A stretch of 50,922 bases of DNA from Ruminococcus sp. (GTDB lineage Bacteria; Bacillota; Clostridia; Oscillospirales; Ruminococcaceae), in the NCBI GenBank assembly GCA_017462565.1, contig JAFTQW010000022.1, positions 1 to 50,922 on the forward strand, in the 5' to 3' direction. The first letter of the stretch is position 1; every line of letters starts with the position of its first letter. The translations under genes were made by a program, and so were the position numbers. The notes under the pieces are model-generated. The model did no database searches. It saw nothing but the letters and a program-made list of their open reading frames with translations, and had not been told where the DNA came from. Below, piece after piece: positions 7,917 through 26,334 of the stretch.

Positions 7917-7963
7917 ATAATGTTAACCAAACAGTAAATGCTGGCACTGTGCAATTATTTTCC

Positions 7964-8734: not shown

Positions 8735-8812
8735 TGAGATAACCTCCTGTTTATGAACTTTCAATCTATTATATCATATTCCGGAATAAAAATCCATACT
8801 TTTCAGAAATAA

Positions 8813-8841
8813 TTGACAAAAAGTGCGATATAGAGTAAAAT
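8813..8841 (+). promoter_or_regulatory. Promoter of the 8864-11507 operon
   Basis: TTGACA (8813-8818), 17-bp spacer, TAAAAT (8836-8841). Ribosome site GAGGTG at about 8851. Confidence 0.8.
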
Positions 8842-8863
8842 ACTAATATAGAGGTGCTGATGA

Positions 8864-9286
8864 ATGGAAGAATTATTTATTTACGGTCTGCTTATGGATT
8901 TAAGTTCTGCGGCAGAACGTCTTTACAATGAGAAACTGGACGAGCTGTTCATGAAAAATCCAGATGATCCATATCTTCTGGAGCTTGAACTTATATGCGG
9001 TAATATCGGGGAAAGCGTTATTTTTATTACAAATCACACAAACTTCACCAAGCTTGACCTGAAAGTCTTTAGAAAACAAATTATTTATATTCTGAGTTCA
9101 ATATATAATACTATAGATATACATGAATTTACTGAATTGTCGTATACATTATGGAATCGGCTGCCAGGATTCATTGCTCATGAAGAGCCGTTTTTAATAC
9201 TCTCTTATGCCGGAGACTCGCTTTCATGGGGAGATTCAGTCTCGGCTGACAAAAATTATAAAAAGATATTTTCATACTATGACTAA
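8864..9286 (+). CDS. Conserved-looking protein of unknown function
   Basis: A 140-residue, acidic, probably cytoplasmic protein with no signal peptide or membrane helix. Predominantly helical: YGLLMDLSSAAERLYNEKLDEL, then DPYLLELELICGNIGES, then VFRKQIIYILSSIYNT. A C-terminal tail is rich in Ser, Asp and Tyr. I do not recognise the family. It is the first gene behind the 8813 promoter and is followed 38 bases later by coaBC with no visible terminator, so it is probably cotranscribed with CoA synthesis. GAGGTG lies 8 bases before the start. Confidence 0.7.
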   Translation: MEELFIYGLLMDLSSAAERLYNEKLDELFMKNPDDPYLLELELICGNIGESVIFITNHTNFTKLDLKVFRKQIIYILSSIYNTIDIHEFTELSYTLWNRLPGFIAHEEPFLILSYAGDSLSWGDSVSADKNYKKIFSYYD

Positions 9287-9324
9287 AAAACGTCAATTTT
9301 ATAGCAAAAAAGGAGAATACTCAT

Positions 9325-10527
9325 ATGCTTAAAGGAAAAACTATTCTGCTTGGAGTATCAGGCTCTATCGCAGTTTATAAAATATGCAACCTCGCAAGAA
9401 TGCTCACGAAGCTCGGTGCGGACGTTCACGTTGCAATGACAGAAAATTCAACAAACTTCGTTCATCCGCTCACATTTGAAACTCTCACTCAGCACAAATG
9501 CCTTATAGATACCTTTGACAGAAATTTCGAGTACAGCGTTGAACACGTTTCAATAGCCAAAAAAGCGGATGTAGTGATGATAGCTCCTGCTTCGGCAAAC
9601 GTTATCGGAAAAATCGCAAACGGTATCGCCGACGATATGCTCACAACCACTGTAACGGCTTGCACCTGCAAAAAAATAATCGCTCCTGCAATGAACCATA
9701 ATATGTTCCATAACCCTATAGTTCAGGATAATATCGAAAAACTGAAAAAATTCGGATATGAGATAATCGAACCCGTTAAAGGTATGCTTGCAAACCGTGA
9801 TATCGGCGACGGAAAGCTTCCGGATGAAGAGACTCTCCTCGAATATATTATCCGTGAAACTGCATTTGAAAAAGATCTTGCCGGAAAAAAAGTCCTCGTA
9901 ACAGCGGGCGCAACAAGAGAAAATATCGATCCGGTCAGATTCATAACAAACCGCTCGACCGGAAAAATGGGATTCGCTATAGCCAAAGCCGCTATGCTCC
10001 GCGGAGCGGACGTAACAGTTGTTGCAGCTCATACCGACGTACAGCCTCCGATGTTTGTCGATGTTATACCCGTTGAAACGGCTCGGGATATGTTCAACGC
10101 CGTTAAGGAGCGTTTTAAGGATTTTGATTTCATAATAAAAGCCGCCGCCGTTGCCGACTATACTCCTTTAACAACTGCCGACAGCAAAATAAAAAAATCC
10201 GAGGGCTATATGAGCATACCTCTCAGAAGAACCGAGGATATTCTAAGATATATCGGACAAAATAAAAGAAACGGTCAGATCGTATGCGGATTTTCAATGG
10301 AAACGGATAACGTTATAGAAAATTCACGGAGAAAGCTTTCTTCCAAAAATGCCGATATGATCTGCGCCAACTCAGTGAAAACGGCTGGCGCAGGATTTGG
10401 AACAGATACCAATATCATCACAATAATTACTGCCGGAAAAGAAGAAGAGCTTGAAATAATGACCAAATTTGATGCGGCAAATCTTATTCTCGATAAGATG
10501 AAGGAAATTGAAAAGGAGAAAATTTAA
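9325..10527 (+). CDS. coaBC: Bifunctional CoaBC (PPC synthetase/decarboxylase)
   Basis: A 400-residue enzyme converting phosphopantothenate plus cysteine to phosphopantetheine. The N-terminal CoaC flavoprotein domain (about 1-180) has the FMN-binding GVSGSIAVYK, active-site H74 in VEHVS and APAMNHNM with N124. The C-terminal CoaB domain (about 185-395) has VTAGATRENIDPVRFITN, STGKMGFAIA and KAAAVADYTP. Oddity: the CoaC flap normally reads LACGD, its Cys being the proton donor (C158 in E. coli Dfp); here it reads MLANRDIGDGKLP, so the Cys position is N157. Otherwise complete. AAAGGAG precedes the ATG. Its stop overlaps the next start (TAATG). Confidence 0.9.
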   Translation: MLKGKTILLGVSGSIAVYKICNLARMLTKLGADVHVAMTENSTNFVHPLTFETLTQHKCLIDTFDRNFEYSVEHVSIAKKADVVMIAPASANVIGKIANGIADDMLTTTVTACTCKKIIAPAMNHNMFHNPIVQDNIEKLKKFGYEIIEPVKGMLANRDIGDGKLPDEETLLEYIIRETAFEKDLAGKKVLVTAGATRENIDPVRFITNRSTGKMGFAIAKAAMLRGADVTVVAAHTDVQPPMFVDVIPVETARDMFNAVKERFKDFDFIIKAAAVADYTPLTTADSKIKKSEGYMSIPLRRTEDILRYIGQNKRNGQIVCGFSMETDNVIENSRRKLSSKNADMICANSVKTAGAGFGTDTNIITIITAGKEEELEIMTKFDAANLILDKMKEIEKEKI

Positions 10528-11507
10528 TGAAAGTTGCTTTTTTCGACGCAAAACCCTATGATATTCCCTCTTTTGAGGAATATGGCAGTAAAAACGATAT
10601 TAAATTCAAATTTTATGAAACCAGACTTAATGAGGATACTGCCGATCTTGCCAAAAACTGTATCGCAGTCTGCGTTTTCGTTAACGATACCGTTAATGCC
10701 GCAGTTATCGACAGGCTCTGTGAACTGGGAGTAAAGCTTATAGCTCTCCGGTGCGCCGGATACAACAATGTGGATATAAAATATGCCAAAGGTAAAATAA
10801 CTATAGTAAGAGTTCCCGCATATTCGCCTTACGCTGTCGCCGAACACGCTATGGCTCTGCTTTTAACGTCGATAAGACGTGTACACAAGGCTTATATCAG
10901 AACACGGGATTTCAATTTCTCTTTAAACGGCCTTACAGGATTCGATCTTCACGGAAAAACCGTCGGCGTGGTAGGAACCGGAAAGATTGGACGTGTTTTC
11001 ATTGATATCTGCCGTGGCTTCGGTATGAATGTTATCGCATACGATAAATTTCCGGCTGATGGATGCGGTATTGATTACGTTCCGCTTAACGAGCTTTTTG
11101 AACGCAGCGATATAATCTCTTTCCACTGTCCGCTTACCGAAGAAACTTTCCACATGATAAACAGCGAAACTGTTGAAAAGCTGAAAAAAGGTGTCGTTAT
11201 CATAAATACCTCCAGAGGAGCATTGATCGACGCTGAAGCTCTGCTCGAAGGCATCAAATCACGCAGAATCGGCGCTGCCTGTCTCGACGTTTATGAAGAA
11301 GAAGGCGACGTTTTCTTTCAGGACTTCTCCGGACATATCATTGACGACGATGTTCTCGCAAGGCTTATTTCCATGCCGAATGTTATTGTAACTTCTCATC
11401 AGGCATTTCTTACGGAAGAAGCTCTCAGCAATATAGCAGAAACTACTGCTGCCAACATTGCTGCTTTCTCTAAAGGTGAAGAAAGCGGAAATGAATTAAA
11501 ATTCTAA
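10527..11507 (+). CDS. ldhA: D-lactate dehydrogenase (D-2-hydroxyacid dehydrogenase)
   Basis: A 326-residue NAD-dependent enzyme reducing pyruvate to D-lactate, a fermentation end step. Very close to the LdhA pattern: RCAGYNNVDIKYAK, RVPAYSPYAVAEHAMAL, TRDFNFSLNGLTGFDL, Rossmann motif GVVGTGKIGRVF, catalytic Arg in NTSRGALID, acidic DVYEEEGDVFF, and catalytic His in TSHQAFLTEEAL. D-LDH rather than phosphoglycerate dehydrogenase is favoured by the DVFF and HQAFLT motifs. It overlaps coaBC by one base (TAATG), so CoA synthesis and lactate formation share an operon here. Confidence 0.9.
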   Translation: MKVAFFDAKPYDIPSFEEYGSKNDIKFKFYETRLNEDTADLAKNCIAVCVFVNDTVNAAVIDRLCELGVKLIALRCAGYNNVDIKYAKGKITIVRVPAYSPYAVAEHAMALLLTSIRRVHKAYIRTRDFNFSLNGLTGFDLHGKTVGVVGTGKIGRVFIDICRGFGMNVIAYDKFPADGCGIDYVPLNELFERSDIISFHCPLTEETFHMINSETVEKLKKGVVIINTSRGALIDAEALLEGIKSRRIGAACLDVYEEEGDVFFQDFSGHIIDDDVLARLISMPNVIVTSHQAFLTEEALSNIAETTAANIAAFSKGEESGNELKF

Positions 11508-11561
11508 GAAAATGACAGATTCTTTGGCAGTTGTCCATAGGAAAAAGTAAAAATATTCATC

Positions 11562-11595
11562 ACGGAGAGTACTCGCTTGCTCTCCGTCTTTATTT
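11562..11595 (+). terminator. Terminator after ldhA
   Basis: Stem ACGGAGAG (11562-11569) with CTCTCCGT (11580-11587), 10-base loop, followed by CTTTATTT. The T-run is weak but the position, 55 bases past the stop, fits. Confidence 0.75.
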
Positions 11596-11625
11596 GCTTA
11601 TCAAACTTTGTTCATATTGATTCAG

Positions 11626-12003: not shown

Positions 12004-12207
12004 ATGACGGACAAGGAATTGCATAAGCTGAAAAAATCAGAGCTTCTTGAACTTCTCTTTACCATGCGAAAAGAGATAGATCTTCTTCAGACCGAAAACA
12101 ATGATCTGAAACAAAAGCTCGGTAATGCCGCTGCTGACCGGGAGATTCTTGAAAAAATTTTTCATGCTGTATGTCCCAACGAAAAGGAGGGAATCGATTC
12201 AAAATGA
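12004..12207 (+). CDS. Small coiled-coil protein, first gene of the pilus operon
   Basis: A 67-residue charged protein, almost entirely one heptad-patterned helix: ELHKLKKSELLELLFTMRK (about 5-23), EIDLLQTENNDLKQKLG (24-40). No signal peptide or membrane segment, so it is cytoplasmic. It overlaps the signal peptidase gene as ATGA, which implies translational coupling. Small proteins with the same look (a KLKKSELLELL opening followed by a coiled coil) are, from memory, often found ahead of sortase/pilin genes in Ruminococcaceae; their role is unknown. It could be a scaffold for the secretion or assembly machinery or a regulator. Confidence 0.7.
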   Translation: MTDKELHKLKKSELLELLFTMRKEIDLLQTENNDLKQKLGNAAADREILEKIFHAVCPNEKEGIDSK

Positions 12208-12797
12208 ATACAGCCAATACGGGTAATTCGTTTGAGAATCTGCCCAGCGCAGAACAGCTTGAAGCAGAGCTGAAACAAATTAAATACCGAAAAGACTTCA
12301 GAAGAATACTAAGAAGCACTATATCGTCACTTCTCGTCGTTGCAGCCGTAGCTGTTCTGGTTTCTATGCTTTTTCTTCCCGTTCTCCGGGTTACAGGCTC
12401 AAGCATGACTCCGACTATGAAAAACGACGAACTCATTATCTGTTCTAAGCGAAGCAACTTCAAACAGGGAGACATAGTGGCTTTTTATTATAACAACAAA
12501 ATTCTTCTGAAAAGAGTTATAGGAATTGCCGGCGATTACATAAACATCACTGAAGACGGAACTGTTTATGTCAACGATGTTAAACTGGATGAGCCTTATG
12601 TAAACGAACTTGCTCTCGGAACCTGCGATATAGAAATGCCGTATCAGGTTCCCGATAACAGAATCTTCGTTATGGGCGATCATCGTTCAGTTTCAATAGA
12701 CAGCCGTTCCTCAACCGTAGGATGTATCGCTGACGAATACGTTATAGGAAAAGTTATCTTCCGTATATGGCCTTTTGAAAATATCGGAACAGTCTGA
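12204..12797 (+). CDS. lepB: Signal peptidase I of the pilus locus
   Basis: A 197-residue type I signal peptidase. One N-terminal membrane helix (about 43-62, LLVVAAVAVLVSMLF) precedes the catalytic Ser in TGSSMTPTM and the catalytic Lys in LLKRVIGIAGD; box E is GDHRSVSIDSR. The active site faces outside and removes signal peptides. It starts as ATGA overlapping the coiled-coil gene, with AAGGAGG 13 bases upstream; the longer frame from 12171 is rejected. An N-terminal helix with NLPSAEQLEAELKQIKYRK may be a cytoplasmic coiled coil that contacts the preceding small protein. Dedicated signal peptidases are common in pilus islands, where they help process pilins. Confidence 0.92.
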   Translation: MNTANTGNSFENLPSAEQLEAELKQIKYRKDFRRILRSTISSLLVVAAVAVLVSMLFLPVLRVTGSSMTPTMKNDELIICSKRSNFKQGDIVAFYYNNKILLKRVIGIAGDYINITEDGTVYVNDVKLDEPYVNELALGTCDIEMPYQVPDNRIFVMGDHRSVSIDSRSSTVGCIADEYVIGKVIFRIWPFENIGTV

Positions 12798-12832
12798 ATG
12801 TTCCTTAATTTATTCAAGGAGGGATGATTTCG

Positions 12833-15800
12833 TTGAAAGGATTTCAATCACTAATCCGCAAATACCTGAAAGATCATGAAAAACGAAAAAAGTATCTTGC
12901 TGTAATCATGAGCCTTTCAACTATTGTTACATTTGCCGTGCCAATGAGTCTTATCATGCCGGCTATCAGTATGACGGATAAAAATGATACTAACGGTGAA
13001 AGTCCTCCAATCAGTCTTTTGGCAAATAATGAACAAATCGACGGACAAATGCTGACTAATGCTGCCGGCGAAGACGGAAATATTGTAAACGGTACAGTTT
13101 ACAGTCCAAGCCAAATGTCTTTGAAAACGCTGCTTATCGGCGAAGGCTCAGGAGTTGCCTGGGCTGACGGATGCAATACCGTTGATGAGATCATGAATGC
13201 GGCAATGGATGAATATTTCTTAGGCATCGCTAATGATTTCTGCGCTTTTATCGAGGGCGATTTTACCGCTACCGAAGCCGACGCAGAAGGACGTGTCGCA
13301 ATCGGCGGAGATCTTTCATTTACAAATGATTGGAACTATCAGGTCGGAAGCGGCGACTACGCTACAATGACTCACCTGTCTTCAACAGATAATTACGCTG
13401 AAATAGCTAATTTTGCAAGTGCTATAATCGGCGGAAAAATAGTTCGTATCAATACGCTGTCCACCGGTTATGGTCACGACAGAAACGGTACAGATGATGA
13501 AAAATACGATGACGCTAATGATTCATCACATAAATACCATACGACAAATGCCGGTAACAAATACTCCTACACCGTTTACTATCTTCCTGAAGAAGGACTT
13601 TTCAAACGTTTTATAATAGGCAATATAGATGATTCTCATCATATAACATATGTTGATTCCAACAGCGAGGATCTGCCTTACAGCGCTTCGCACAGTCATG
13701 ATTATCCTGGTGGATGCGGCGAAGATTGCCCGCACAATTACTTGGACAATATAAACGAATTAGCCCAGATGTATCAATACGATGGTACAAAAGATATTAT
13801 TTCAAAAACCTTTGTTCAAATAAGAGAACGTTCTTCAATTCTCTCTCAGAAGAAAGGTATCGCTGCCGACGGTAATCAATGGGGCGACATACACCTGACA
13901 GGTCCCGGAACGGACAGCAAGGCTAAAACAGTTTATTTTGATCTTGGAGATTCGTGGAAAGATTACAGAAATATATATTTTGATGATATTCCCGAAGATG
14001 CAAACATTGTTATAAACTGTGGCGACAGCAACGTTGTTATAGCCGGTGACGGTAATAACTCAAACGTTCATACATTTATAAACGGTACTGAAATATCCAA
14101 TACAGGAAACGTTCACAGCAACAATAATCCGGATTCGCAGAGAATTCTTTATAATTTCTATAATGCTGAAAAGGTTAGTATTAACGGAAACTTCAACGGT
14201 ACGGTTCTTGCTCCGAACGCTGACGTAACCTCAATGGAAGAGAAATCACCCGGACATCTTTCCGGCGCTCTTATTGCAAAATCCTTCAAGGGCGGTCTTG
14301 AATTCGGTTACAGACCTTATCGAGGCGGAGCCGATATTCTTGGAGCTGTTTCCGGTTACACTATTCCGGTTGATAAATTTTCAAGCATAAAAGACGAGGA
14401 AGGAAATTTCGTTTTCCTCCCCGACGCAACTTTTGCACTCATCGATACTAATAATACTCCTGAAAATAAACAGGACGACAACCTCGTAAGTGCATGGAAC
14501 AGCGGCAGCGAAACAAAGTATACTACAATTCCGACAGCCGTGGATTTCTCCGGAGATACTGATTACGCTCCTCTTATGGAGAATGGTAAATATACCATTT
14601 CAAAAACGTATATTTTAGAAGAACAATCTGCTCCTGACGGATACCTTAAAGAAGATAAGCAATATTCTATAAAGGTAGAAGAAACTATCTACAGCGATTA
14701 TCTGCTTCCTAAAGACGGCAGCGGAACATTCCCGCAAAAAGTCGACGTCAAGGTGCAGATGACTGAAAGTCCTGAAAAAGCAGACGGACTGAATGAAACG
14801 CTGATATTCACTATAAAAGACGCTTACGGCGATAAGGGTATTGAACAGCGCAGAATTTATATTCCAAACGATACATCACCTACTGATGTCTTTAATATTG
14901 ATATCAACTCATCTCAGACAAAACAGAACATCACAAAAGCAGGAAAATACTCAAGCTCTGACAGTTTGACCGGCGGAAGCGATGAAACTGATATAATGGG
15001 TGCTCCAAAACAGACTACTTCTGTTACGACTTCTTCTACTACAACTACTACAACTACAACTACGGCGGCAACTATAACAGCAGAATATGTTTATACTACT
15101 GATTCCGAAGAAAGCCTGCTGGACAAAGATATTAATTTAGATTCGGCAATAGAGAACGTTGTTGCTATTAAATTCACAGTAAATCCTAACGGTGATACTG
15201 TTGACAATAATCCGCCTGTTGTTTGTTATGGTTTCGACAATTACTCAAATTATCCTACTTTCAGTTTTAGCAATGATGACGATGAAAAGGAAATTATTAT
15301 TGAGCTTGCCGAACCAACTAAAATAAACAAATTAAAGATCGATCCTCATAAAAGTAATTATCCAAATTTCACTTTAATTGGCGGCATTACGTTTATCTAT
15401 ACCACTGATAACAGCTTTACGGCTACTCCAGCTAATTCAAATTTAATAGTTGGTGATTCAACACCGCTTACAATTGATTCTAAAGCGCTTGGAAATATTA
15501 CATGGGACTATACCAATGCAGATGGATGCACAATTACAGGCGACAAAGAAAACGGATACACTTTGAAAGTAACTAAGTCCGGTGACTTCATTATTAGTGG
15601 TACAGACAACAGTGAAAATGGTTCTGGAAGAGTAACGTCTTTCAGCGTTCATGTTGAGCCATTTAAAATCACACCGAATCAGGCTTCGATCTCAAACGGT
15701 GAAACAGTTACTCTGACAGCGAATAAACCTGCTGAATGGTCAAAAGATAATGAAAATGTAATCATTACTCCAAGTAACGATAAAATTGAATGTACTGTAA

Positions 15801-18800
15801 CCGTAAACGAAGATGCTACTGGTTCTGCCAAAATTACAGCTACGTATAATGCAGAAGATGGTACTGAATATACAGATACAGTCGACATCACCATTCCTGA
15901 ACCTATACTTCTTTACAAAAAAGTAAACAAGGTAGACGAAAACACCGAAATCAGCGGTATTGACCTGAAAAAGGCATCTCAGTTTAAAGACGGAGATAAT
16001 AAATATTATTATTCTCCGGAAAATATTATGGTAATGCCGCTTCCTGAAAATAATCTTGATTTCGTCAATACACCCGGCTTATTATTCAAAAAGGTTGACG
16101 ATTCGGGAGAGGCAGTTACAGGAGCTGAAATTCAGCTTTGGCAAGGCGAAAGTCAGATTACTGATGAAACCATATGGAAATGGGATTCAAATGAACAAAG
16201 CTCTCAGCTGATCGATGTCAGCAAGCTGGACAAAGATATAATATACACCCTTAAAGAAACAAATGAACCGTCTGCACATGAAAAGGCATTGCCTATTCAC
16301 TTTAAGATAATAACTCCGGACGAAGATGATACCAGCGGCAAAATAACCGTTAAATACTGGCAAGCTGAAAATAGTGAGCCGGAGCCTGAAACGGCTGATA
16401 CGCTGACTCTTCCCGATAGTTATACTATTGAAATGGTAGATAATCGAGTTCTTGGAGTTAAGCTCACGCTCAAAAAAGTAGATTCTGAAGACAAATCAAT
16501 AGAGCTTGACGGCGCAGAGTTTTCACTTTATGCTGCTGACGACACGCTTATTTGCTCTGGTCTCGACGGAAACGGAAACATTTTCGACAACGAGAATTTC
16601 AAGAATCTTGACAACAAATATGCTAAAAACGGCTACCTTTTCCCGGGAGTTTATTACCTGACAGAAGATACTATCCCCGATCATCCAGAAAAGGATAAGG
16701 GAGAAACCTACAAGAATCCGGGTAAGATTTACTTTACCGTTAGCAAAGTGGACAATGGTTATGATGTTGACTCAGGACGAACAACTTCTGTAAGCATTGA
16801 TGTTAAAGATGTAAACGGCGGTTGCCAGTATTTCGTATACATCGGCGAAAACAAAGACCAACAGTTGAATAAAAAAGATGGCGTGTCTATCAACAATGTA
16901 AAATCATTCATTGTAAAGGCTGATCCGGAACCTGTTATTTACCTTACCGTTGACGGCGATGATTTAACAGTCAATGGCAGTGAAATAAAACAGGCTGATG
17001 GTTCTTATCAAAAAACTTTTGATAATCCAGTCACCCTTACAAAATTTGAGATTCAAAAACCTGGGTGGGGTCAAATCACTCCAAGTTACGTTGAGATCGT
17101 TACTGCCGACGGTACAAAATACATTTTCGACCAAAATGCTTCGGGCGGCGATTCGGCAATGTCCGATGAAAACCCGATGCTCAACGTTAACGGTTCAACT
17201 CTTGAAATCGGAAACGAAAAAGAAAAAGACGAAAAGGACATCACTGTTACCAAAAAATGGTTGAACGATGAAGGCTTTGAGACATTAAGAGATTCAATAA
17301 CAGTTAAGCTATATCGCTCTGAAACAGAGCTTACCGATCCAAAAATACAGCTTACAGAAGATATGGCATATAAAAAGGACAACAGCGATGTAACCGCAGT
17401 TCTTAACGAATCAAACAACTGGACAGCAACATGGAACGGTCTTGAATCGAAATACCTTAAGGACGAAGTAAAATATCCTTATTACTACTATATTAAGGAA
17501 ACAGAAGTTCCTGCTGGTTACGATGACAGCTATTCCGTTGATCCGGACGGCACTCTTGTTGCTGCAAACACTCTGAAAACAATTTCGCTGAATATTGAGA
17601 AACTATGGGACGATTCGAGTAACTCTGTTACTAAACCGGACAGTCTCACAGTAAAGCTTCAAATGAAAAACGGCGATGATGATGATGATTGGGTGGATGT
17701 ACGTAATATTACTCTTACATCTGATAATGATTGGAAATCAGCGGCTGAAAATCTTCCCGCAGAAAGAACATACCGCATTAAAGAACTCAATGTTCCGAAT
17801 GGCTGGAAGATCAAAACGGACAGCAATGAAAGTTCGACTAACGGCGAAACTCTCGCTATCACAAACGAGCCTAAGCTGAGCAGTCTCATCATTAAAAAAC
17901 TTTGGGACGATACAGATCCTGCAAAACGTCCCGATTCGATAAAGGTCGCTCTTTATAGGTCGACAAATCAATCTTCAACAAATACACCCGGTTTAACGCC
18001 GTCTCCAACAGGAGCTTTGTGGCCGGAACAAACTGCGGACGAGGTCAAAGAGGATTATGCAAGACTTCTTCAATATTCGCTCTTCTTCTATGACGGAGTT
18101 ATGTGCGGCGAGGATGTTGACGAAACCAGCAATTATTACTGGCGTGGAGATTGTCATACAGAAGATGAAATTTCCGGCGGTTTCCACGATGCAGGCGACC
18201 ATGTAATGTTTGGTCTGCCGGCAGGATTCTCAGCTTCAAATCTTGGCTGGAGCTTATATGAATTCAGAAGCGATTACGACGAGCTTGGTCAGACAGCGCA
18301 CACAAAGTTAATTACTGACCATTATGCAGATTTCTTTAGCCAGTGTATCCGTGATAATAACGGTACAACAGAAGTTCTTGTTCAGAAAGGTCACGGAAAT
18401 ACCGACCACGCTTATTGGGGAATTCCGGAACTTCAGGATTCCCGTGAAAGTGAAATGTATTGGAGAAGCAATACCGGAGCTGATATAGCTGCTGAATATG
18501 CTGCTTCACTTGCATTAAGCTATCTGAATTTCCACACTACAGACGAGGCAAAATACAGCGCATACCTTGAAAAAGCTAAAGAGCTTTACGCATTCTCTGA
18601 AAAAGTCAATACTCCATTAAATGAATGGGGCGTAAACAAAGATGAAACTCAGCAGGGCGCACAATATCCCGGATTTTATGCTTCAGACAGCGCTCAGGAC
18701 GATCAGGCTTGGGCAGCAGCTTGGCTTGCAATTGCTTGTAATGAAGCGGGAGATACAACCGGGTATGACAATTACAAATCAAAGGCATCTAATAAACTAA

Positions 18801-21800
18801 ATGGACTTGGCAATGGCTGGGGCGGATACCACTGGAATAACGTTGCTCTCGGTGCAAAATGTGCTAATGCAGCATATCTTGGCGGAAGCTGGGGCGATGT
18901 AACAAATTTCGTGAATAGCGAATGCACAGGTTCCGGTTATAAAGACACAAATGCATGGGGACAATCCAGATATAACTGCGGTTATCAGACAATCGCTCTT
19001 GCAGCAGCTAATCATTCAGAATCGGGAGTTAATACAAATAACGTTAAATCATGGTGTAAATCACAGATGAACTACATTCTCGGCGATTCCAACACCAACG
19101 GAACAGTTCTTGTATCTAACTTCTCTGCAAATTCTACTCAGAAACCTCATTTCAGAGCAGGAGTAGGAAAGCGATGCGACATGACTGTAAAAGACGATAC
19201 CACTATTATAGATGGATATGATAATGATGTTTTCCGTTTGATAGGCGGTATGGTAGGAGGTCCTCAGTATACAGGCGGTTCGTATGAAGACCGTCGTTCT
19301 GATTACCAGAAAAACGAAGTAGCCAGCGATTACAATGCAAACCTTGTCGGCGCAGCAGCCGGACTTTACCACTTCTACAAAACTGGTTACACATACGAAA
19401 TCCCAGGCGTTAAAAATACCTATAATGGCAAGCCTAATCCGAATGCAGTTCAGCCGCAGCTTCTTAGCTTTAATGAAGAGCTTCCTCAGCTGTTCATGGC
19501 TAAGGTTAAGGAGGTTATGGCGGCGGGAGATAATATAATTATTTTAGATTCATCAAATAACACTGATCTTTTTAATCAAATAAAAGGAAATGGTGCAGAT
19601 GTATCAAGTCTGTGTTCAGGAAAAAATATCACTAAAATTGAGATTTCATTAAGTCAACAAAATGGCAGTCTTACATTGAATGGCAGTACATTTCTTAATG
19701 GTTCTACTACAATAGCCACCGGCGGTTCATGGAATGAAAATACTTTTGTTTTATTACCGCAAGATATTAATGGAGAAAGCAAATTTACTCCGCTATGGGG
19801 GCAAGCAAATATTTCAAGTGATAACATAACCAACATAAAATTTGATGGATGGGGAGCTACAGTTAACTATGTTAAGCTTTATTTTGACGCAGGTAATTCA
19901 TTTACTGTAACTCCATCAAAAACAACTCTTCTTGTAGGAGATAGCATTGACCTCTCTGCTTCTGATAACAGTGGAGATATTAGCTGGAGTTCCGACAATA
20001 CAAATGTTGCAACGGTTGAAGCAAATGGTAAAGTTACAGCAGTTGGCATTGGAAAAGCAACAATAACCGGAACAGACTCTGAAGAAAAAGAAGGTTCTTG
20101 CGAAATTACAGTTGAAAACTTTACAATTTCATCTGATAAGCAATCTGTTAACGAGGGCGATCAATTTACAATTACTGCAAATGCATCTGTTGATAGCTGG
20201 ATTTATGATTCAAGTAAAATTGAAAGTATCAATTCAAACGGAAACAATACTTATACTGTTAAAGTAAAGGAAAATGTATCCGGTGACGTTAAAATTTCAG
20301 CTAAACACGATTCACTTACATCAAATGAAATAACGATTACTGTTAATGCAATTCAACTTAATATTACAGAAGATTCTGTAGATATTCCTATCGGCGAATC
20401 TGTAACGCTTCATGCAAACGCTAAAGCAGAATGGTCTGCTTCTGATACTGCAAAGGTTAAGCTTACTCCAAGCGAGGACGGCACAAGCTGCGCAGTTGAA
20501 GCATTAAGCGGAACAAACAGTTCTGTTACGATAACTGCAAGCCGAAACGGAAGTAGTGATACTGCTACGGTTAATATCAAGCCGAAAAATCAGTGGTATA
20601 AGTTAGACGGATTTAGTTGTAGCGGAGATGCAGGATTTACTCAGGAATATGAAGGCAATTGGGAAAATGTTGTTAAGATTGAATTTATTGACAAAAATGG
20701 TAACAGTTTAGCAACAAATGGAAATGTATGCGACAGTAGCTTTGGAGGTAGTTTTAGTTATAATACAAGTGGCGGCGATTTCAATCAGGATTGGATTGAA
20801 AATGATAACTTTAGAAATAAGCTCAAAGAAATGTCAAGCACTACGCTTGCTGATCCGGTAACTGTTACAAAAATCAGTTTTAGATCAATAAAGACATGGT
20901 ATAATGAGTTTAATATCAAAGAAATCAGATTGCATTATGCTAATGTACAGACATACACAATAACTGCCGACAAAACCGAACTTCTCCCAGGAGAAACAGC
21001 AATACTCACAGTAACAGACTCAGACGGAAACGCTGTCACCGACATTGAGGCAAATGAATGGACAATTCCTGAAAACCGTGGTACGATTACCAAAAATGAT
21101 GACGGCACTTTCACCTACACAGCGAATGGAAAATTCGGTGACGCAGCCCTCACCCTGACGCACAACAATATCAAGGGTAAAATTACACTCACAACAAAAA
21201 CAATCACAGCAAACTCGCCTATCAGACTTCGTCCTGACGGTACTGCTAACATCACATTAACAGGCGCTGACGATGCAAATATCACCTATAACGTTGCAGA
21301 TTCAAGTATTGCAGAAATCGACGGAAGCGGTAATGTAAAAGCAATCGCTGCCGGAGAAACAACATTCACTGTCGTTTGCAACGGCGTCGAAACAGACTGC
21401 ACAGGGCAGATAATAGTCGTTGGTGACTTAAACATAACCGGTGACAACGTTATGAATATCGGCGATGAAATCCAGCTTACAGTAAGCGGAAACGTCGGAA
21501 ATGTAACATGGTCGTCAAGCGATACGGATGTTGCCGACGTCGATCAAACCGGTAAAGTAACATCTAAGAAATACGGTTCGGTTACAATTACGGCAACCGA
21601 TTCCGACGGTACTACTACAGCAACCCATACAATCAACGTTCAGGCAATAGGAAAACGACCTGATCTCCCGGAAAATGCTGAACTTGTCGATATCTATGAT
21701 ATTACTTCCGAAAATAACTGGTCATTGGAAGTTGATAAGCTTCCGCTTACAGACGAAAACGGCAAACCTTATTACTACTATATTGCTGAATGTGACAATT

Positions 21801-22057
21801 CCGGTACAACGGTAACTGAAATCAGAGGCAAAGGAGTAAAGTATTTGCCAAGCGAATATGACAACGGAAAACAACTAACAGAATCCGGCGAGTTTACTCA
21901 GCTTTCGGTAAAGAATACTAAAGGCGAAGAAACTCAAGGCGAAATGCCCTCTGCCGGCGGGGAGGGAACTAAAATCTACTATGTAACGGGATTTATTTTA
22001 AGTTCAACCGCCGCTTGCTATCTTATCAGACGACGCAGAAAACGTGTCGCAAAATAA
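12833..22057 (+). CDS. Giant sortase-anchored pilus adhesin with GH9 cellulase nested in a Cna_B domain
   Basis: About 3,074 residues. TTG 12833 is preferred over ATG 12824 because AAGGAGGG abuts the latter. Order (residues from the TTG): export/membrane segment 20-45; choice-of-anchor A domain ~106-500; SpaA-like domain ~505-677; Thr linker ~730-747; Ig-like (Big_2-type) and unknown beta-modules ~750-1020; two SpaA-like domains ~1080-1362; beta-module; two Cna_B domains ~1466-1680; first half of a third Cna_B (LIIKKLWDDTDPAKRPDSI); GH9 ~1726-2188; beta-modules and about six Ig-like domains to ~2940; second half of that Cna_B (SENNWSLEVDKLP...PYYYYIAE); sorting signal MPSAGG (~3038), membrane helix, RRRRKR tail. 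GH9 residues present: D1786/D1789 in HDAGDH, H2106 in KPHFR, E2162 in NEVASDYN. Predicted to hydrolyse cellulose or beta-glucan at the cell surface as the pilus tip or accessory subunit. Confidence 0.9.
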   Translation: MKGFQSLIRKYLKDHEKRKKYLAVIMSLSTIVTFAVPMSLIMPAISMTDKNDTNGESPPISLLANNEQIDGQMLTNAAGEDGNIVNGTVYSPSQMSLKTLLIGEGSGVAWADGCNTVDEIMNAAMDEYFLGIANDFCAFIEGDFTATEADAEGRVAIGGDLSFTNDWNYQVGSGDYATMTHLSSTDNYAEIANFASAIIGGKIVRINTLSTGYGHDRNGTDDEKYDDANDSSHKYHTTNAGNKYSYTVYYLPEEGLFKRFIIGNIDDSHHITYVDSNSEDLPYSASHSHDYPGGCGEDCPHNYLDNINELAQMYQYDGTKDIISKTFVQIRERSSILSQKKGIAADGNQWGDIHLTGPGTDSKAKTVYFDLGDSWKDYRNIYFDDIPEDANIVINCGDSNVVIAGDGNNSNVHTFINGTEISNTGNVHSNNNPDSQRILYNFYNAEKVSINGNFNGTVLAPNADVTSMEEKSPGHLSGALIAKSFKGGLEFGYRPYRGGADILGAVSGYTIPVDKFSSIKDEEGNFVFLPDATFALIDTNNTPENKQDDNLVSAWNSGSETKYTTIPTAVDFSGDTDYAPLMENGKYTISKTYILEEQSAPDGYLKEDKQYSIKVEETIYSDYLLPKDGSGTFPQKVDVKVQMTESPEKADGLNETLIFTIKDAYGDKGIEQRRIYIPNDTSPTDVFNIDINSSQTKQNITKAGKYSSSDSLTGGSDETDIMGAPKQTTSVTTSSTTTTTTTTTAATITAEYVYTTDSEESLLDKDINLDSAIENVVAIKFTVNPNGDTVDNNPPVVCYGFDNYSNYPTFSFSNDDDEKEIIIELAEPTKINKLKIDPHKSNYPNFTLIGGITFIYTTDNSFTATPANSNLIVGDSTPLTIDSKALGNITWDYTNADGCTITGDKENGYTLKVTKSGDFIISGTDNSENGSGRVTSFSVHVEPFKITPNQASISNGETVTLTANKPAEWSKDNENVIITPSNDKIECTVTVNEDATGSAKITATYNAEDGTEYTDTVDITIPEPILLYKKVNKVDENTEISGIDLKKASQFKDGDNKYYYSPENIMVMPLPENNLDFVNTPGLLFKKVDDSGEAVTGAEIQLWQGESQITDETIWKWDSNEQSSQLIDVSKLDKDIIYTLKETNEPSAHEKALPIHFKIITPDEDDTSGKITVKYWQAENSEPEPETADTLTLPDSYTIEMVDNRVLGVKLTLKKVDSEDKSIELDGAEFSLYAADDTLICSGLDGNGNIFDNENFKNLDNKYAKNGYLFPGVYYLTEDTIPDHPEKDKGETYKNPGKIYFTVSKVDNGYDVDSGRTTSVSIDVKDVNGGCQYFVYIGENKDQQLNKKDGVSINNVKSFIVKADPEPVIYLTVDGDDLTVNGSEIKQADGSYQKTFDNPVTLTKFEIQKPGWGQITPSYVEIVTADGTKYIFDQNASGGDSAMSDENPMLNVNGSTLEIGNEKEKDEKDITVTKKWLNDEGFETLRDSITVKLYRSETELTDPKIQLTEDMAYKKDNSDVTAVLNESNNWTATWNGLESKYLKDEVKYPYYYYIKETEVPAGYDDSYSVDPDGTLVAANTLKTISLNIEKLWDDSSNSVTKPDSLTVKLQMKNGDDDDDWVDVRNITLTSDNDWKSAAENLPAERTYRIKELNVPNGWKIKTDSNESSTNGETLAITNEPKLSSLIIKKLWDDTDPAKRPDSIKVALYRSTNQSSTNTPGLTPSPTGALWPEQTADEVKEDYARLLQYSLFFYDGVMCGEDVDETSNYYWRGDCHTEDEISGGFHDAGDHVMFGLPAGFSASNLGWSLYEFRSDYDELGQTAHTKLITDHYADFFSQCIRDNNGTTEVLVQKGHGNTDHAYWGIPELQDSRESEMYWRSNTGADIAAEYAASLALSYLNFHTTDEAKYSAYLEKAKELYAFSEKVNTPLNEWGVNKDETQQGAQYPGFYASDSAQDDQAWAAAWLAIACNEAGDTTGYDNYKSKASNKLNGLGNGWGGYHWNNVALGAKCANAAYLGGSWGDVTNFVNSECTGSGYKDTNAWGQSRYNCGYQTIALAAANHSESGVNTNNVKSWCKSQMNYILGDSNTNGTVLVSNFSANSTQKPHFRAGVGKRCDMTVKDDTTIIDGYDNDVFRLIGGMVGGPQYTGGSYEDRRSDYQKNEVASDYNANLVGAAAGLYHFYKTGYTYEIPGVKNTYNGKPNPNAVQPQLLSFNEELPQLFMAKVKEVMAAGDNIIILDSSNNTDLFNQIKGNGADVSSLCSGKNITKIEISLSQQNGSLTLNGSTFLNGSTTIATGGSWNENTFVLLPQDINGESKFTPLWGQANISSDNITNIKFDGWGATVNYVKLYFDAGNSFTVTPSKTTLLVGDSIDLSASDNSGDISWSSDNTNVATVEANGKVTAVGIGKATITGTDSEEKEGSCEITVENFTISSDKQSVNEGDQFTITANASVDSWIYDSSKIESINSNGNNTYTVKVKENVSGDVKISAKHDSLTSNEITITVNAIQLNITEDSVDIPIGESVTLHANAKAEWSASDTAKVKLTPSEDGTSCAVEALSGTNSSVTITASRNGSSDTATVNIKPKNQWYKLDGFSCSGDAGFTQEYEGNWENVVKIEFIDKNGNSLATNGNVCDSSFGGSFSYNTSGGDFNQDWIENDNFRNKLKEMSSTTLADPVTVTKISFRSIKTWYNEFNIKEIRLHYANVQTYTITADKTELLPGETAILTVTDSDGNAVTDIEANEWTIPENRGTITKNDDGTFTYTANGKFGDAALTLTHNNIKGKITLTTKTITANSPIRLRPDGTANITLTGADDANITYNVADSSIAEIDGSGNVKAIAAGETTFTVVCNGVETDCTGQIIVVGDLNITGDNVMNIGDEIQLTVSGNVGNVTWSSSDTDVADVDQTGKVTSKKYGSVTITATDSDGTTTATHTINVQAIGKRPDLPENAELVDIYDITSENNWSLEVDKLPLTDENGKPYYYYIAECDNSGTTVTEIRGKGVKYLPSEYDNGKQLTESGEFTQLSVKNTKGEETQGEMPSAGGEGTKIYYVTGFILSSTAACYLIRRRRKRVAK

Positions 22058-22152: not shown

Positions 22153-23718
22153 ATGAAAAACTTTAAGAAATTTACAGCAGCTATCGCAGCTACATTAATG
22201 GCAGCTTCACTCTCAATCCCTATGGCTACTTCTTTCACAGCTTCGGCTGCTTCAATCACAATTAACGGCATTTCAACAGAACAGGCTCATACATTTGAAG
22301 TTTATCAGGTATTAACAGGTACGTTAGACGAAGCAAAAAAACTCAACGATATGAAATGGGGTTCTGGTGTAACTTCATTTAATGGAGCTAATGTTACAAC
22401 AGGAAAAGAATTATCAAAGTCAGAATTTGAAGCAATCAGTGCTGTTACTGATGCAAGAACCCTTATTACAGGTGATGCGCCATTACTGGTATTGTCTGAA
22501 ACTAAAGCCTGTGAGGATGTTACTTCAGCCAATGGTACAGTGACAATCAACGACTTAGATGACGGCTACTATATCGTTAAGGATACTACAAATCTCGAAA
22601 ATGCAGATGACGCAAACTCCGCTTGGATCGTTCAGGTTGCCGATAATGCTACGGTAGACATAAAAAATGCAAAGCCTACAGTTGATAAGCAAATTGCTGA
22701 CAATAATGACGGTGAAGTAGAAACAGGAGATAATAACGGCTGGGGCGAAACAGCTGACCATGCTATCAACGAATCATTCCAATTCAAGCTGACTGCAACT
22801 ATTCCCGCTGATGCAGATCTCGCTGCATACGAAACTTATAAGCTTACATTCAATGATACAATGTCTGCTGGCGTAACTTTTGACAGCATTGAAAGCGTAA
22901 AGGTTGGTGATACTACACTTACAACCGCTCAGTATGCTGAAACAGCTACAGCGGCAGCTAATAAAGCCGGTCTTAGCTGGACGCTTTCAATTGAGGATGT
23001 TAAGGCAATCGCTGGAGCGTCTTTCGGTACTGCTCCGGTAACTGTTGAAGTTATATATAATGCACATCTGAACGAGAACGCTATCGTATCTAAAGAAAGC
23101 GTAGATTCTATTTCTGATATTAATAAAAATACAGTTTCCTTAAGCTATTCTAATAACCCTGATTCAACAGGAACAGGCACAACCGACGGTAAAACAACGG
23201 AAGATACTGTTTGGGCATTTACATATGAAGTGGACAACACAAAGTATGCTAACTCAAAGGCAGCTGAAAACATACTTGCCGGTGCAGAATTCAATCTTAA
23301 AAATGCTGAAGGAACTCCTATAACATTCAAACTTGTTGACGGATTCTACATTCCAGATGCAAGCGGTTCTGCAACGCTTACATCTGCTGAAGGTACAGGT
23401 CAGTTCAACATTAAGGGTCTTGATGCTGGAACATACACATTAACAGAAACAAAAACACCAGATGATTATAATAAATGTGACAACATAACTGTTGTAATCA
23501 AAGCAACTCACGAGGAAAATGCTGATGAAGCTTCCGCTAAGCTTAGTCTTGAGGGTTCAAGCAACATGGTCAATGACGTTATCAATAAATCCGGTTCAAC
23601 ACTTCCTTCAACCGGTGGTATCGGTACAACACTGTTCTACCTCGGCGGTGGCTGCATGGTAGCAGTAGCAGGAATCTTCCTTATCACAAAGAAGAGAATG
23701 AGCAAAAACGCAGAATAA
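22153..23718 (+). CDS. Major (backbone) pilin, isopeptide-forming fimbrial protein
   Basis: A 521-residue secreted pilin. Signal peptide (about 1-34, ending SFTASA), an N-terminal domain, a central isopeptide-forming D2-type domain (about 180-330, starting KPTVDKQIADN, which holds the probable pilin-motif Lys), a C-terminal SpaA/Cna_B domain (about 350-480, with GAEFNLKNAEG and AGTYTLTETKTPDDY, the E-box), then the sorting signal LPSTGG, a hydrophobic helix and a basic tail KKRMSKNAE. Class C sortase would cleave LPSTG and join it to the pilin Lys of the next subunit. AAGGAG lies 8 bases before the ATG. It is flanked by stem-loops on both sides, as expected for the most abundant product of the operon. 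Confidence 0.92.
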   Translation: MKNFKKFTAAIAATLMAASLSIPMATSFTASAASITINGISTEQAHTFEVYQVLTGTLDEAKKLNDMKWGSGVTSFNGANVTTGKELSKSEFEAISAVTDARTLITGDAPLLVLSETKACEDVTSANGTVTINDLDDGYYIVKDTTNLENADDANSAWIVQVADNATVDIKNAKPTVDKQIADNNDGEVETGDNNGWGETADHAINESFQFKLTATIPADADLAAYETYKLTFNDTMSAGVTFDSIESVKVGDTTLTTAQYAETATAAANKAGLSWTLSIEDVKAIAGASFGTAPVTVEVIYNAHLNENAIVSKESVDSISDINKNTVSLSYSNNPDSTGTGTTDGKTTEDTVWAFTYEVDNTKYANSKAAENILAGAEFNLKNAEGTPITFKLVDGFYIPDASGSATLTSAEGTGQFNIKGLDAGTYTLTETKTPDDYNKCDNITVVIKATHEENADEASAKLSLEGSSNMVNDVINKSGSTLPSTGGIGTTLFYLGGGCMVAVAGIFLITKKRMSKNAE

Positions 23719-23805: not shown

Positions 23806-24690
23806 ATGAGAAAAAAATCAGGCAAAATTTCAACGATTATTTTAATCATAATACTACTCGTGGGGCTCTCCGTGATGCTATATCCGATCATAAGCAACTG
23901 GTGGAATGAAAGAGTTCAAAGTCAGGTAATTTCAAACTACAACCAAACCGTTGCACATATGGACAGCGATGAAACCGAAAGGCTTTTAGCCGAGGCTCAC
24001 GATTATAACGAACAGCTCGCCGGAATATATGCTCCTTTTATAAACTACGAACAGATTTCGGGCTATGAGGATATACTTAATGTCTCCGGCACAGGTATTA
24101 TGGGATATATAACGATTCCCGTTATCCATGCTGAATTTCCGATCTATCACGGAACAAGCGAAGAGGTTCTCAACGTTGCGGCAGGGCATCTTCAGGGTTC
24201 GTCTATTCCCGTAGGCGGAAAAAATACCCACGCTGTTATTTCGGCTCACAGAGGTCTCCCCTCTGCCAAGCTTTTCACCGACCTTGATAAAATGGTTGTC
24301 GGCGATACTTTCACTATAACTATTCTTGACGAGGTTCTGACATACGAGGTTGAGGAAATTCTTATCGTCAAGCCGGAAGAAGTTGATAAACTTGCAATTA
24401 TTCCGAATGAAGATTATGTAACGCTCATGACCTGCACTCCTTATGGAGTAAACACACATCGTCTGCTTCTGCGTTCACATAGAATAGAAACAGTCAACGA
24501 TGAATCAGCTGTGAAAATTAAAGTGAATCCCGATGCGACGCAGGTTGACCCGATGCTTGTCGTCCCGATTATATTTACGGTATTTGTTGTCATATTAATT
24601 TTCTTCTGGATTTTCGGAAGCAAAAAGAGAAAAAACAAAAAACCGGATTACAAGTCTATTAAAATATACAACGAAAAGGATGGTGACTGA
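23806..24690 (+). CDS. srtC: Class C (pilin-polymerising) sortase
   Basis: A 294-residue membrane-bound transpeptidase. N-terminal helix (about 9-30), catalytic His in VISAHRGLPSAKLF, catalytic Cys in TLMTCTPYGVNTHRLL, and Arg in LLLRSHRIE. A second membrane helix at about 246-268 and a basic tail are typical of class C. The TLMTCTPYGVNTHRL signature marks pilus sortases, which cross-link LPXTG pilins. GGGAGGG precedes the ATG. It sits between the two pilin genes. A lid motif like DPF/DPW is not obvious in the region ahead of the core; INYEQISGYEDI lies there instead. Confidence 0.93.
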   Translation: MRKKSGKISTIILIIILLVGLSVMLYPIISNWWNERVQSQVISNYNQTVAHMDSDETERLLAEAHDYNEQLAGIYAPFINYEQISGYEDILNVSGTGIMGYITIPVIHAEFPIYHGTSEEVLNVAAGHLQGSSIPVGGKNTHAVISAHRGLPSAKLFTDLDKMVVGDTFTITILDEVLTYEVEEILIVKPEEVDKLAIIPNEDYVTLMTCTPYGVNTHRLLLRSHRIETVNDESAVKIKVNPDATQVDPMLVVPIIFTVFVVILIFFWIFGSKKRKNKKPDYKSIKIYNEKDGD

Positions 24691-24691
24691 T

Positions 24692-25660
24692 GTGCAAACA
24701 AAAAAATTACACCGTATAGGTGCAATAATACTTAGTATTCTTTGCGCCGCACTTACCATGATAAGCACGATAAGCTTTAATGTTTCAGCCGCAGAGGAAG
24801 GCTCGCTGACTCTTATATGCCGTTCAGAGGATGTAACGCTTACAGGAATGCAGTGGAAGATTTATTATGCCGGCTACCGTGACGGAAACGATTTTGTTCT
24901 CGGAGGAGATTTTGCCGATTATCCCGTAAAGCTGGACGATTTATCGGCAGAAGCAATTACGGCGGCAGCAGAAACACTGGAAAATTATGCCGTTATAGAC
25001 AAAATTGCTCCGATAGCCGAAGGAGAAACTGATTCTAACGGCGAAATACAATTTAAAAATCTCCGCACAGGAATGTATCTTGTAAGCGGCAAAGAACTGT
25101 ATGTTGATAAAACAATTTATATTCCGTCCGCAATTCTGATAGAGGTCAGCGACGGAAACGTTGATCTTGACGCATATCCTAAATTTTATCTTGACGTATC
25201 CGGTTCAGAATTTGAACGTTATACTGTTAAAAAAATATGGGAAAATGATGAAAATGCTTTAAGCGACAGAACGGCTTCAATTACAGTAGAAATTTACTGC
25301 GATGAAACGCTTAATGAAACAGTTACGCTGAACGGCGAAAACAACTGGACATATGAGTGGACTGCTCAAAAAGGACATAGCTGGAGAGTTATAGAAACAA
25401 ACGTCCCTGATAAATACACAGTATCATACCGCTCAAATGAAACTCAGTTTGCAGTCATAAACTCTCATCAGACTGAAACAACTGTAACTACTACATCAAC
25501 TACAATAACTAACGTAACAACAACGACGACTAAATCCGAACCTAAGCTGCCTCAAACCGGACAGCTCTGGTGGCCGGTACCGATACTTGCTCTCGGCGGA
25601 ATGATTTTTGTCGGAATCGGATGCCGTTTGCTTGCAAGAAACAAAAAGGAAGATGATTAA
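24692..25660 (+). CDS. Minor (accessory or base) pilin with Cna_B domain
   Basis: About 322 residues. Signal peptide (IGAIILSILCAALTMIS...SFNVSA), an N-terminal SpaA-like domain (about 30-170, with TDSNGEIQFKNLRTGMYLV), a Cna_B domain (about 178-260, YTVKKIWENDENALSDRTAS), a Thr-rich stretch (about 266-290), sorting signal LPQTG, a hydrophobic helix and tail RNKKEDD. GTG 24692 is preferred over ATG 24680 because AAAAGGA sits directly against the latter; both overlap or abut the sortase stop. The Thr-rich neck before LPQTG suits a subunit embedded in the cell wall, so a base pilin is likely. It overlaps the next gene by TAATG. Confidence 0.85.
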   Translation: MQTKKLHRIGAIILSILCAALTMISTISFNVSAAEEGSLTLICRSEDVTLTGMQWKIYYAGYRDGNDFVLGGDFADYPVKLDDLSAEAITAAAETLENYAVIDKIAPIAEGETDSNGEIQFKNLRTGMYLVSGKELYVDKTIYIPSAILIEVSDGNVDLDAYPKFYLDVSGSEFERYTVKKIWENDENALSDRTASITVEIYCDETLNETVTLNGENNWTYEWTAQKGHSWRVIETNVPDKYTVSYRSNETQFAVINSHQTETTVTTTSTTITNVTTTTTKSEPKLPQTGQLWWPVPILALGGMIFVGIGCRLLARNKKEDD

Positions 25661-26334
25661 TGAAGAAAAAACACGGAATGTGTTGTATAATTATTGGGAC
25701 AATGCTGCTTATTGCGGCATTGTCTCTTGTTATCTGCAATTATAGAACCAGCAAAATTGCGGAAGAAAATTCCGGAAGAATACTTTCGCTTATAAAAGAA
25801 AAAATTCCGGAGCAAACAGAATTGGAATCAATGATTATTACCACCTCTAACGACCTCTTTCACGAATACGAAACACAATTCACAACCGAAACAACAACCG
25901 AAGAAGCGGTCGTTGAAATCGAAAACACTGCATATATCGGATATGTTTCGATTCCGTCTCTTGGAATAGAGCTTCCGGTTATGAGCGAATGGAGCTATGA
26001 TAACCTTAAAATATCGCCGTGCCGCTATAAGGGAACTGCCGCTGGAGGAGATATTATCATTGCGGCTCATAATTACAATTCCCACTTTGGACGTTTAAAC
26101 GAACTCAGCGGAGGCGAGGAAATTGTTTTCACAGCTGCCGACGGAAAAATTTATAATTACGAGGTTATTCAGACAGAAAGTATTTCCGGAAAAGACGTTG
26201 AAGCAATGGAGTTCGGTTCGTCTGAAAACTGGGATCTTACTCTCTTCACCTGCACTCTCAGCGGTCAGAGTCGTGTTACAATAAGAGCAATTCTCCAAGA
26301 TAAAAGGACGTTTCGTAAAGACGGGTACTCATAA
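25660..26334 (+). CDS. Second sortase (probable housekeeping-type, wall-anchoring)
   Basis: A 224-residue sortase with one N-terminal membrane helix (about 8-26) and a sortase fold from about residue 85. Catalytic His is in IIIAAHNYNSHFGRL, Cys in LTLFTCTLSGQSRVTIRA, with the Arg in the same strand. It lacks the C-terminal membrane helix of class C and looks more like class D or an unassigned class. A Thr/Glu-rich neck (FTTETTTEEAVVEIE) links membrane and core. Placed last in the pilus operon, it probably attaches the finished pilus or the MPSAG giant protein to the cell wall; which signal it prefers cannot be seen. Confidence 0.88.
   Translation: MKKKHGMCCIIIGTMLLIAALSLVICNYRTSKIAEENSGRILSLIKEKIPEQTELESMIITTSNDLFHEYETQFTTETTTEEAVVEIENTAYIGYVSIPSLGIELPVMSEWSYDNLKISPCRYKGTAAGGDIIIAAHNYNSHFGRLNELSGGEEIVFTAADGKIYNYEVIQTESISGKDVEAMEFGSSENWDLTLFTCTLSGQSRVTIRAILQDKRTFRKDGYS

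Follow-up and report, generated by a model that had tools for sequence, protein, structure and literature searches.

The window analysed here, 50,922 nucleotides of Ruminococcus sp. (assembly GCA_017462565.1, contig JAFTQW010000022.1), carries on its forward strand a single open reading frame (ORF) for a giant pilus adhesin in which a glycoside hydrolase family 9 (GH9) cellulase domain lies between the two halves of one Cna_B domain. A first-pass annotation of this DNA had claimed just that, a pilus protein anchored by sortase with a GH9 set inside a single Cna_B, and we uphold the claim: the halves can be joined, an isopeptide triad is conserved across the insert, and homologues occur both with and without the GH9. 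As the best explanation of the whole, we consider it likely that the adhesin is an adhesive, probably tip, subunit of a sortase-built pilus that displays its cellulase off a locked, load-bearing domain.

The protein opens with a hydrophobic leader and an adhesive domain and continues through SpaA-type domains and other modules to a pair of intact Cna_B domains and a Cna_B half; then come the GH9, an unnamed module (X1), Ig/Big_2 repeats, a second unnamed module (X2), further Big_2, the remainder of the Cna_B and a sorting signal. Residue numbers in the first-pass annotation are 3 low because its counting began at 12833; corrected numbers are used throughout. The features of the adhesin are as follows (HMM, hidden Markov model):

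12824..22057, + strand: giant pilus adhesin with nested GH9; single ORF, 3077 amino acids
13220..14326, + strand: N-terminal adhesive domain (choice-of-anchor A / ice-binding-like), residues ~133-501; TIGR04215 111.5 bits (cut-off 29), PF20597 129.3 bits
17237..17578, + strand: intact Cna_B domain 1, residues 1472-1585; our own Cna_B HMM and Pfam
17585..17875, + strand: intact Cna_B domain 2, residues 1588-1684; our own Cna_B HMM
17879..17965, + strand: split Cna_B half 1, residues 1686-1714, with the expected isopeptide Lys1692; HMMs and alignments
18056..19363, + strand: nested GH9 catalytic domain, residues 1745-2180, with D1789, D1792, H2109 and E2165; Pfam and alignment
19436..19894, + strand: unnamed module X1, residues 2205-2357; relatives in L092 and L106, predicted mostly strands
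19898..20092, + strand: Big_2 repeat, residues 2359-2423; best score of four Big_2 stretches in the protein
20591..20947, + strand: unnamed module X2, residues 2590-2708; relatives in L094, L105, L103 and L102, predicted mostly strands
21653..21922, + strand: split Cna_B half 2, residues ~2944-3033, with Glu2989 and Asn3031; HMMs and alignments
21944..22054, + strand: sorting signal MPSAGG (residue 3041), hydrophobic stretch and basic tail; sequence and position

The split Cna_B domain and its isopeptide triad

Our own Cna_B HMM, built from 11 intact domains, matched the third Cna_B of the adhesin in two pieces, residues 1688-1718 on profile positions 3-35 and residues 2931-2995 on positions 17-84. 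With the Pfam Cna_B profile, whose best stretch in the adhesin is residues 1473-1577, half 1 scored 19.5 bits (profile 3-29) and half 2 scored 26.7 bits (29-75), and the two joined reached 46.3 bits over positions 3-75 (cut-off 22.3); a control in which half 1 was joined to a neighbouring Big_2 stretch gave 20.4 bits. The halves of L097 (18.9 and 19.3 bits) and L099 (23.1 and 26.1 bits) rose on joining to 37.6 and 51.4 bits, respectively. When 18 joined split domains were aligned by hhalign with 8 intact Cna_B domains, the match ran end to end (99.4%, score 120.6, 99 columns), and the control join matched over half 1 only (96.1%, score 54.8, 28 columns). By sequence, then, the halves are supported as one Cna_B domain that the insert splits after the second strand. 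The break and the resumption that the first-pass annotation had placed near residues 1711 and 2941 fall at about 1714 and 2944, the intact neighbour it had put at ~1466-1585 lies at 1472-1585, and the insert it had estimated at ~1,230 residues measures 1,235. The HMM search it had proposed with GH9 and Cna_B profiles found both, with the GH9 within the split Cna_B.

Among the other adhesins, the insert ranges from 94 to 1,311 residues. One of them, L098, is retained with a second half ~60 residues too long (an upstream Trp was taken) and hence a gap, 841 residues, that is too short. The profile of the 8 intact domains reached 7 solved chains, the collagen adhesin 1d2p and 1d2o among them; the others were three vWFA-domain proteins, a pilus assembly protein and SpaC. 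A phmmer search of solved structures with the joined L099 halves gave no match at E 0.01.

The residues expected to form the isopeptide bond are divided by the insert. Only four columns never vary across the 8 intact Cna_B domains of the adhesin family, those of Lys, Trp, Glu and Asn. The split domain has Lys1692 ahead of the insert and Glu2989 and Asn3031 behind it. The Lys is present in 17/17 rows of alignment A1 and the Glu in 14/14 rows that reach its column, and the Asn is conserved in 18/18 adhesins with a sorting signal (21 were examined, of which 3 stop before the Asn). Lys1692, Glu2989 and Asn3031 are thus the expected isopeptide triad, kept in all relatives that cover them. As passages of one paper describe, CnaB isopeptide bonds link the adjacent first and last strands, and the CnaB domains of Spy0128 are inextensible when pulled (PMC12617251). 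Since the triad spans the insert and such bonds run from first to last strand, everything between Lys1692 and Asn3031, the GH9 included, would lie inside a covalent loop off the load path.

The nested GH9 domain and its recurrence in the genus

Pfam Glyco_hydro_9 (PF00759) matches residues 1745-2177 with 244 bits (cut-off 27.7), over positions 1-443 of a 444-position profile, and the GH9 fold is supported, with 2yik and 1ia6 as relatives in the PDB. The first-pass annotation had described a complete GH9 with D1786/D1789, H2106 and E2162; all four are present, renumbered D1789, D1792, H2109 and E2165. The Asp pair and the Glu, which we take to be the catalytic residues of GH9, are found in 17/17 rows of A1 and in 15/16 rows with that column, respectively. 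The nested GH9 is under purifying selection, with a ratio of nonsynonymous to synonymous substitution rates (dN/dS) of 0.15 between the window and L092.

A GH9 tree of 49 rows combined 17 nested domains with 32 others, 6 of which come from the window genome; of the 10 GH9s that this genome has besides the nested one, L005 and L007 gave no row owing to filters, and two more were not included. In this quick tree, made without bootstraps, the 17 nested GH9s stand on one side of a branch and the 32 others on the other, with a Shimodaira-Hasegawa-like approximate likelihood ratio test (SH-aLRT) support of 98, a grouping consistent with one insertion. The row nearest to the nested clade is L087, a GH9 of the same genus (support 80).

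The nested GH9 of L098 (G338:C29, ORF 4197-11606, + strand, residues 1440-1911) looks circularly permuted and was omitted from A1 and from the tree for that reason. Positions 19-436 of the window GH9 query fall on its residues 1440-1832 and positions 1-37 on residues 1875-1911; the first GH9 helix is thus at the C-terminal end, and HDAGDH comes almost directly after the Cna_B half.

In at least 16 of 100 genomes of the same genus, a long ORF has a GH9 immediately behind the first half of a Cna_B (G000, which is the window genome, G324, G335, G382, G315, G357, G377, G338, G358, G307, G378, G336, G313, G379, G359 and G260). Both Cna_B halves are seen in 14 of them; in G307 and G260 the contigs end first. 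Two named records also carry the nested GH9: JAMPIL010000002.1, from a metagenome-assembled genome of R. flavefaciens and taken as the same contig as L092, and JAQXHC010000047.1, which stops before half 2. In L096 (G357:C12), the GH9 adhesin is spread over two overlapping ORFs of 574 and 2184 amino acids, which may reflect a frameshift or a sequencing error.

The homologue without the insert that the first-pass annotation had suggested looking for is approached by the orthologue L113 (G362), an adhesin like that of L099 with no GH9 match, in which both Cna_B halves are kept 94 residues apart. Residues 1416-1706 of L113 match 1768-2034 of L099, and 1685-1921 match 2480-2714; these blocks flank the L099 GH9 (2047-2469), which is therefore absent from L113. 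Two adhesins of two other genera, G250 (L043) and G103 (L044), have inserts without a Pfam name in the loop that holds the GH9 here, and their Cna_B halves are 500 and 170 residues apart, respectively. Another Cna_B of L043 (G250:C161) also seems interrupted, with profile positions 2-91 at residues 787-882 and 54-107 at residues 965-1017. Outside the genus, among the matches listed for 297 genomes of the family, a GH9 in an ORF longer than ~1,050 amino acids was found only in the window genome and G260, both members of the genus, and among the matches listed for 391 genomes of the class one in a similarly long ORF was found only in the window genome; these searches scored at most four candidates per genome, and absence outside the genus is not proven.

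The first-pass annotation had also placed Ig-like and unknown beta-modules in the insert, which agrees with the Big_2 stretches and with the strand-rich X1 and X2. Neither X1 nor X2 has a Pfam name; their profiles gave 4 and 1 matches to solved structures, respectively, with best E values of 0.1 and 0.25, taken as chance. When residues 2205-2709 were modelled and used for a fold search, the matches were taken up by the Ig/Big_2 repeats (model positions 153-385). X1 is only 29% identical between the window and L092, where the adjoining GH9 is 86% identical, which may point to fast change or to module exchange within the insert.

The pilus operon and the proposed display of the cellulase

The adhesin is the second gene of a predicted pilus operon, ordered signal peptidase, adhesin, backbone pilin, class C sortase, minor pilin and second sortase. 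Its other genes are the following:

12171..12797, + strand: Signal peptidase I (S26), first operon gene; TIGR02227 126.1 bits (cut-off 47), Pfam Peptidase_S26
22153..23718, + strand: backbone pilin, LPSTGG; TIGR04226 71.3 bits (cut-off 30), PF16569 66.5 bits
23806..24690, + strand: class C (pilus) sortase; NF033745 277.9 bits (cut-off 160)
24680..25660, + strand: minor pilin with one intact Cna_B, LPQTG; PF05738 38.0 bits and sequence
25660..26334, + strand: second sortase; TIGR01076 51 bits (cut-off 39.35)

Profiles and sequence together recover the signal peptidase, pilins, two sortases and sorting signal that had been described around the adhesin. The TIGR04226 match supports a backbone pilin with an isopeptide domain; against the full-length SpaH/EbpB model NF033902, this pilin scores 77.3 bits, below the cut-off of 95. 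The adhesin is not listed under Pfam Gram_pos_anchor or NCBIfam LPXTG_anchor, so its sorting signal is called from sequence and orthologues. Of the 15 other genomes of the genus that have a nested GH9, 7 show the six-gene order as well (L092, L093, L094, L095, L097, L105 and L106); in these, operon genes were judged by length and end sequences and class C sortases by profile. As for the remaining loci, contig ends truncate L100 to L102, the stretch examined for L103 shows all but the upstream side, L098 and L104 are partial and L039 is rearranged. A class C sortase scored above the cut-off in 17/17 genomes searched. In L123 (G358:C4) and L124 (G357:C5), the signal peptidase is directly followed by the backbone pilin, leaving an empty adhesin slot.

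The first-pass annotation had predicted a covalent cellulolytic pilus distinct from a dockerin cellulosome, and for us too such a pilus is predicted from the anatomy. The genome profile search placed no dockerin within 12824-22057 despite 66 dockerin matches in the genome, and Pfam listed none in the adhesin. A separate dockerin-bearing ORF lies elsewhere in the window (4085-5509, - strand; dockerin at 4100-4258).

We propose the following working. The last domain before the sorting signal is a Cna_B that carries cargo, namely one GH9 cellulase with Ig-like and unnamed modules. Its two halves would close into one Cna_B, and an isopeptide bond between Lys1692 and Asn3031, aided by Glu2989, would tie the first strand to the last. 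The class C sortase would link the adhesin to the backbone pilin, and the adhesive N terminus, with its accompanying modules, would hold plant fibre. Force on the pilus would in that case enter at the first strand, cross the isopeptide to the last strand and pass on to the anchor, so that the GH9 would hang in a loop bearing little load and could cut glucan near the contact, in the same molecule as the adhesive domain. More tentatively, and with slightly more doubt than belief, we suggest that in these adhesins the loop behind strand two of the final Cna_B is a cargo socket into which different modules are plugged (GH9 in Ruminococcus, others in two other genera), with the isopeptide shunting force past the cargo. 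A load-bearing pilus could in this way incorporate a catalytic domain that is not stretched, giving a covalent cellulolytic pilus alongside the cellulosome.

Several observations weigh against a cellulase nested in a pilus subunit, and they are taken here with the alternatives that they favour. The nesting could be as described in a protein that is singly anchored to the wall as a surface adhesin-cellulase and not built into a pilus, which we regard as unlikely but deserving of weight. The adhesin gene is separate from the pilus operon in G357, G358 and G362 (the G362 contig stops inside the pilin), so stand-alone wall display is possible; the sorting signal is compatible with wall anchoring as well, and the pilus itself is predicted from genes. 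However, the six-gene order is shared by the window and nearly half of the other genomes compared, the class C sortase was found in every genome searched, and the operons of two of the unlinked cases (G357 and G358) contain the empty adhesin slot.

It is also conceivable, though we think it rather improbable, that the nested GH9 is mainly a cellulose-gripping module with little or no hydrolysis. In L095 (G315:C103), the nested GH9 is without the catalytic Glu (NGIG in place of NEVA) and without the conserved His, and the domain is nevertheless retained, possibly for binding only. Activity may thus not be the sole role of the nested GH9. Long branches of several nested GH9s in the tree point the same way; the catalytic residues kept in the other rows and the purifying selection on the window domain are the observations on the side of an active enzyme.

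Considerably less probable is that half 2 is a small domain of its own and half 1 a truncated remnant, with no single Cna_B at all. Half 1 is short and, taken alone, scores only -1.7 to 3.5 bits with our own HMM in five rows (L093, L098, L102, L103 and L106), where, being below 4 bits, it was recognised from alignments instead. Closure is not seen in coordinates either. An AlphaFold2 model of the orthologue L097 (mean predicted local distance difference test, pLDDT, 80.0; predicted template modelling score, pTM, 0.67) has strands at 8-17 and 28-36 in half 1 and six strands between 591 and 689 in half 2 (model numbers), but its fold search was filled by GH9 structures, and one-sandwich closure is what we infer. 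Set against this, the window pieces meet at Pfam profile position 29 with an additive score, the Lys of half 1 and the Glu and Asn of half 2 are invariant, and two other genera have different inserts at the same loop. That the halves are separate complete domains, which the first-pass annotation had named as a refutation, is likewise unlikely: the pieces are complementary and score as one, and no such case was seen among the 18 adhesins, that of the window being one, that allowed inspection of the two halves. We note that L113 differs from L099 elsewhere too, with 225 residues between aligned blocks where L099 has 565.

An assembly or recombination accident that fused a pilin gene to a GH9 gene would suit a window from a 66-contig draft and relatives that are mostly draft genomes, but we reject it as having next to no chance, since the same junction recurs across the genus as counted above, the nested GH9s group in the tree and evolve under purifying selection, and the C-terminal half is in frame with the sorting signal.

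Relation to known systems

Nested and wall-anchored arrangements have precedents. The insert of Spy0125 is a thioester domain and that of RrgA a vWFA domain, GBS104 being a further example, and the scaffoldin ScaE holds ScaB and CttA by cohesin-dockerin binding. By sequence, the adhesin has the loop insertion that defines proteins of the RrgA and Spy0125 types, with an insert that is neither vWFA nor thioester. As far as the relevant parts of PMC12617251 go, whole domains, in most cases isopeptide or adhesion domains, can be inserted without harm to CnaA and CnaB folds, and a figure legend names CnaB, vWFA and thioester domains as inserted. Spy0125-type pilus adhesins resemble the protein described here in that a large, complete domain interrupts a loop of a CnaB isopeptide domain (PMC12617251, in part); there, however, the insert is adhesive, whereas the present one, 1,235 residues long, combines a GH9 with additional modules and sits in the last domain before the sorting signal. 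In RrgA-type tip pilins, a large functional head is similarly nested in an isopeptide-type domain of an adhesive pilin (PMC12617251, same sections), but a vWFA adhesin sits in a CnaA-like host domain there and a GH9 cellulase in a CnaB here.

The first-pass annotation had taken a GH9 insertion in an isopeptide pilin fold to be new. The enzyme as insert does appear to be so; domain insertion itself is already published, on the evidence of those sections of PMC12617251. We found no report of a GH9 or other enzyme inserted in a Cna_B in the open-licence literature, as judged by titles and the beginnings of abstracts, and the main text of PMC12617251 makes no mention of hydrolase, cellulase, catalytic domain or Ruminococcus. 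That a Cna-type pilin domain can house a functional one is therefore a known principle for adhesive inserts, and a catalytic insert that recurs across a genus is the new part.

The cellulosomal dockerin GH9s of Ruminococcus share the GH9 catalytic domain with the adhesin. The adhesin, in contrast, has no dockerin and its GH9 is fused into a sortase-anchored protein, and the nested GH9s form a group separate from the 32 others in the tree, which were included regardless of any dockerin. With the ScaE scaffoldin of R. flavefaciens, the likeness is that a sortase ties fibre degradation to the cell wall; ScaE anchors ScaB and CttA, as an excerpt of PMC4081043 has it, whereas here the enzyme belongs to the anchored chain. 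The LPXTA carbohydrases of Bacillus cellulosilyticus are also carbohydrases with a sortase-type motif (PMC3617157), but the nested domain and pilus operon described here were not met in the part of that paper compared.

If the proposed working is correct, cellulolytic ruminococci have a second way of holding enzymes at plant fibre, with a cellulase covalent in a pilus as opposed to docked on a scaffold, and attachment and hydrolysis would be united in one polymer. It would also be a natural example of a force-resistant domain that takes up a large enzyme and keeps it clear of the load path, which is of use in protein engineering, and the load bypass could be checked by single-molecule pulling.

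Two minor observations concern the rest of the adhesin and its kin. Intact Cna_B domain 1 (17237-17578) has a synonymous divergence (dS) of 0.12 from L092, compared with 0.29-1.33 in six other segments, possibly through recent recombination. A second adhesin of the choice-of-anchor A type is present in the window genome (G000:C18 30206-31426, in L052), where it is ended by the contig edge, and genes related to it, without a clear Cna_B, occur in 12 of 13 stretches examined.
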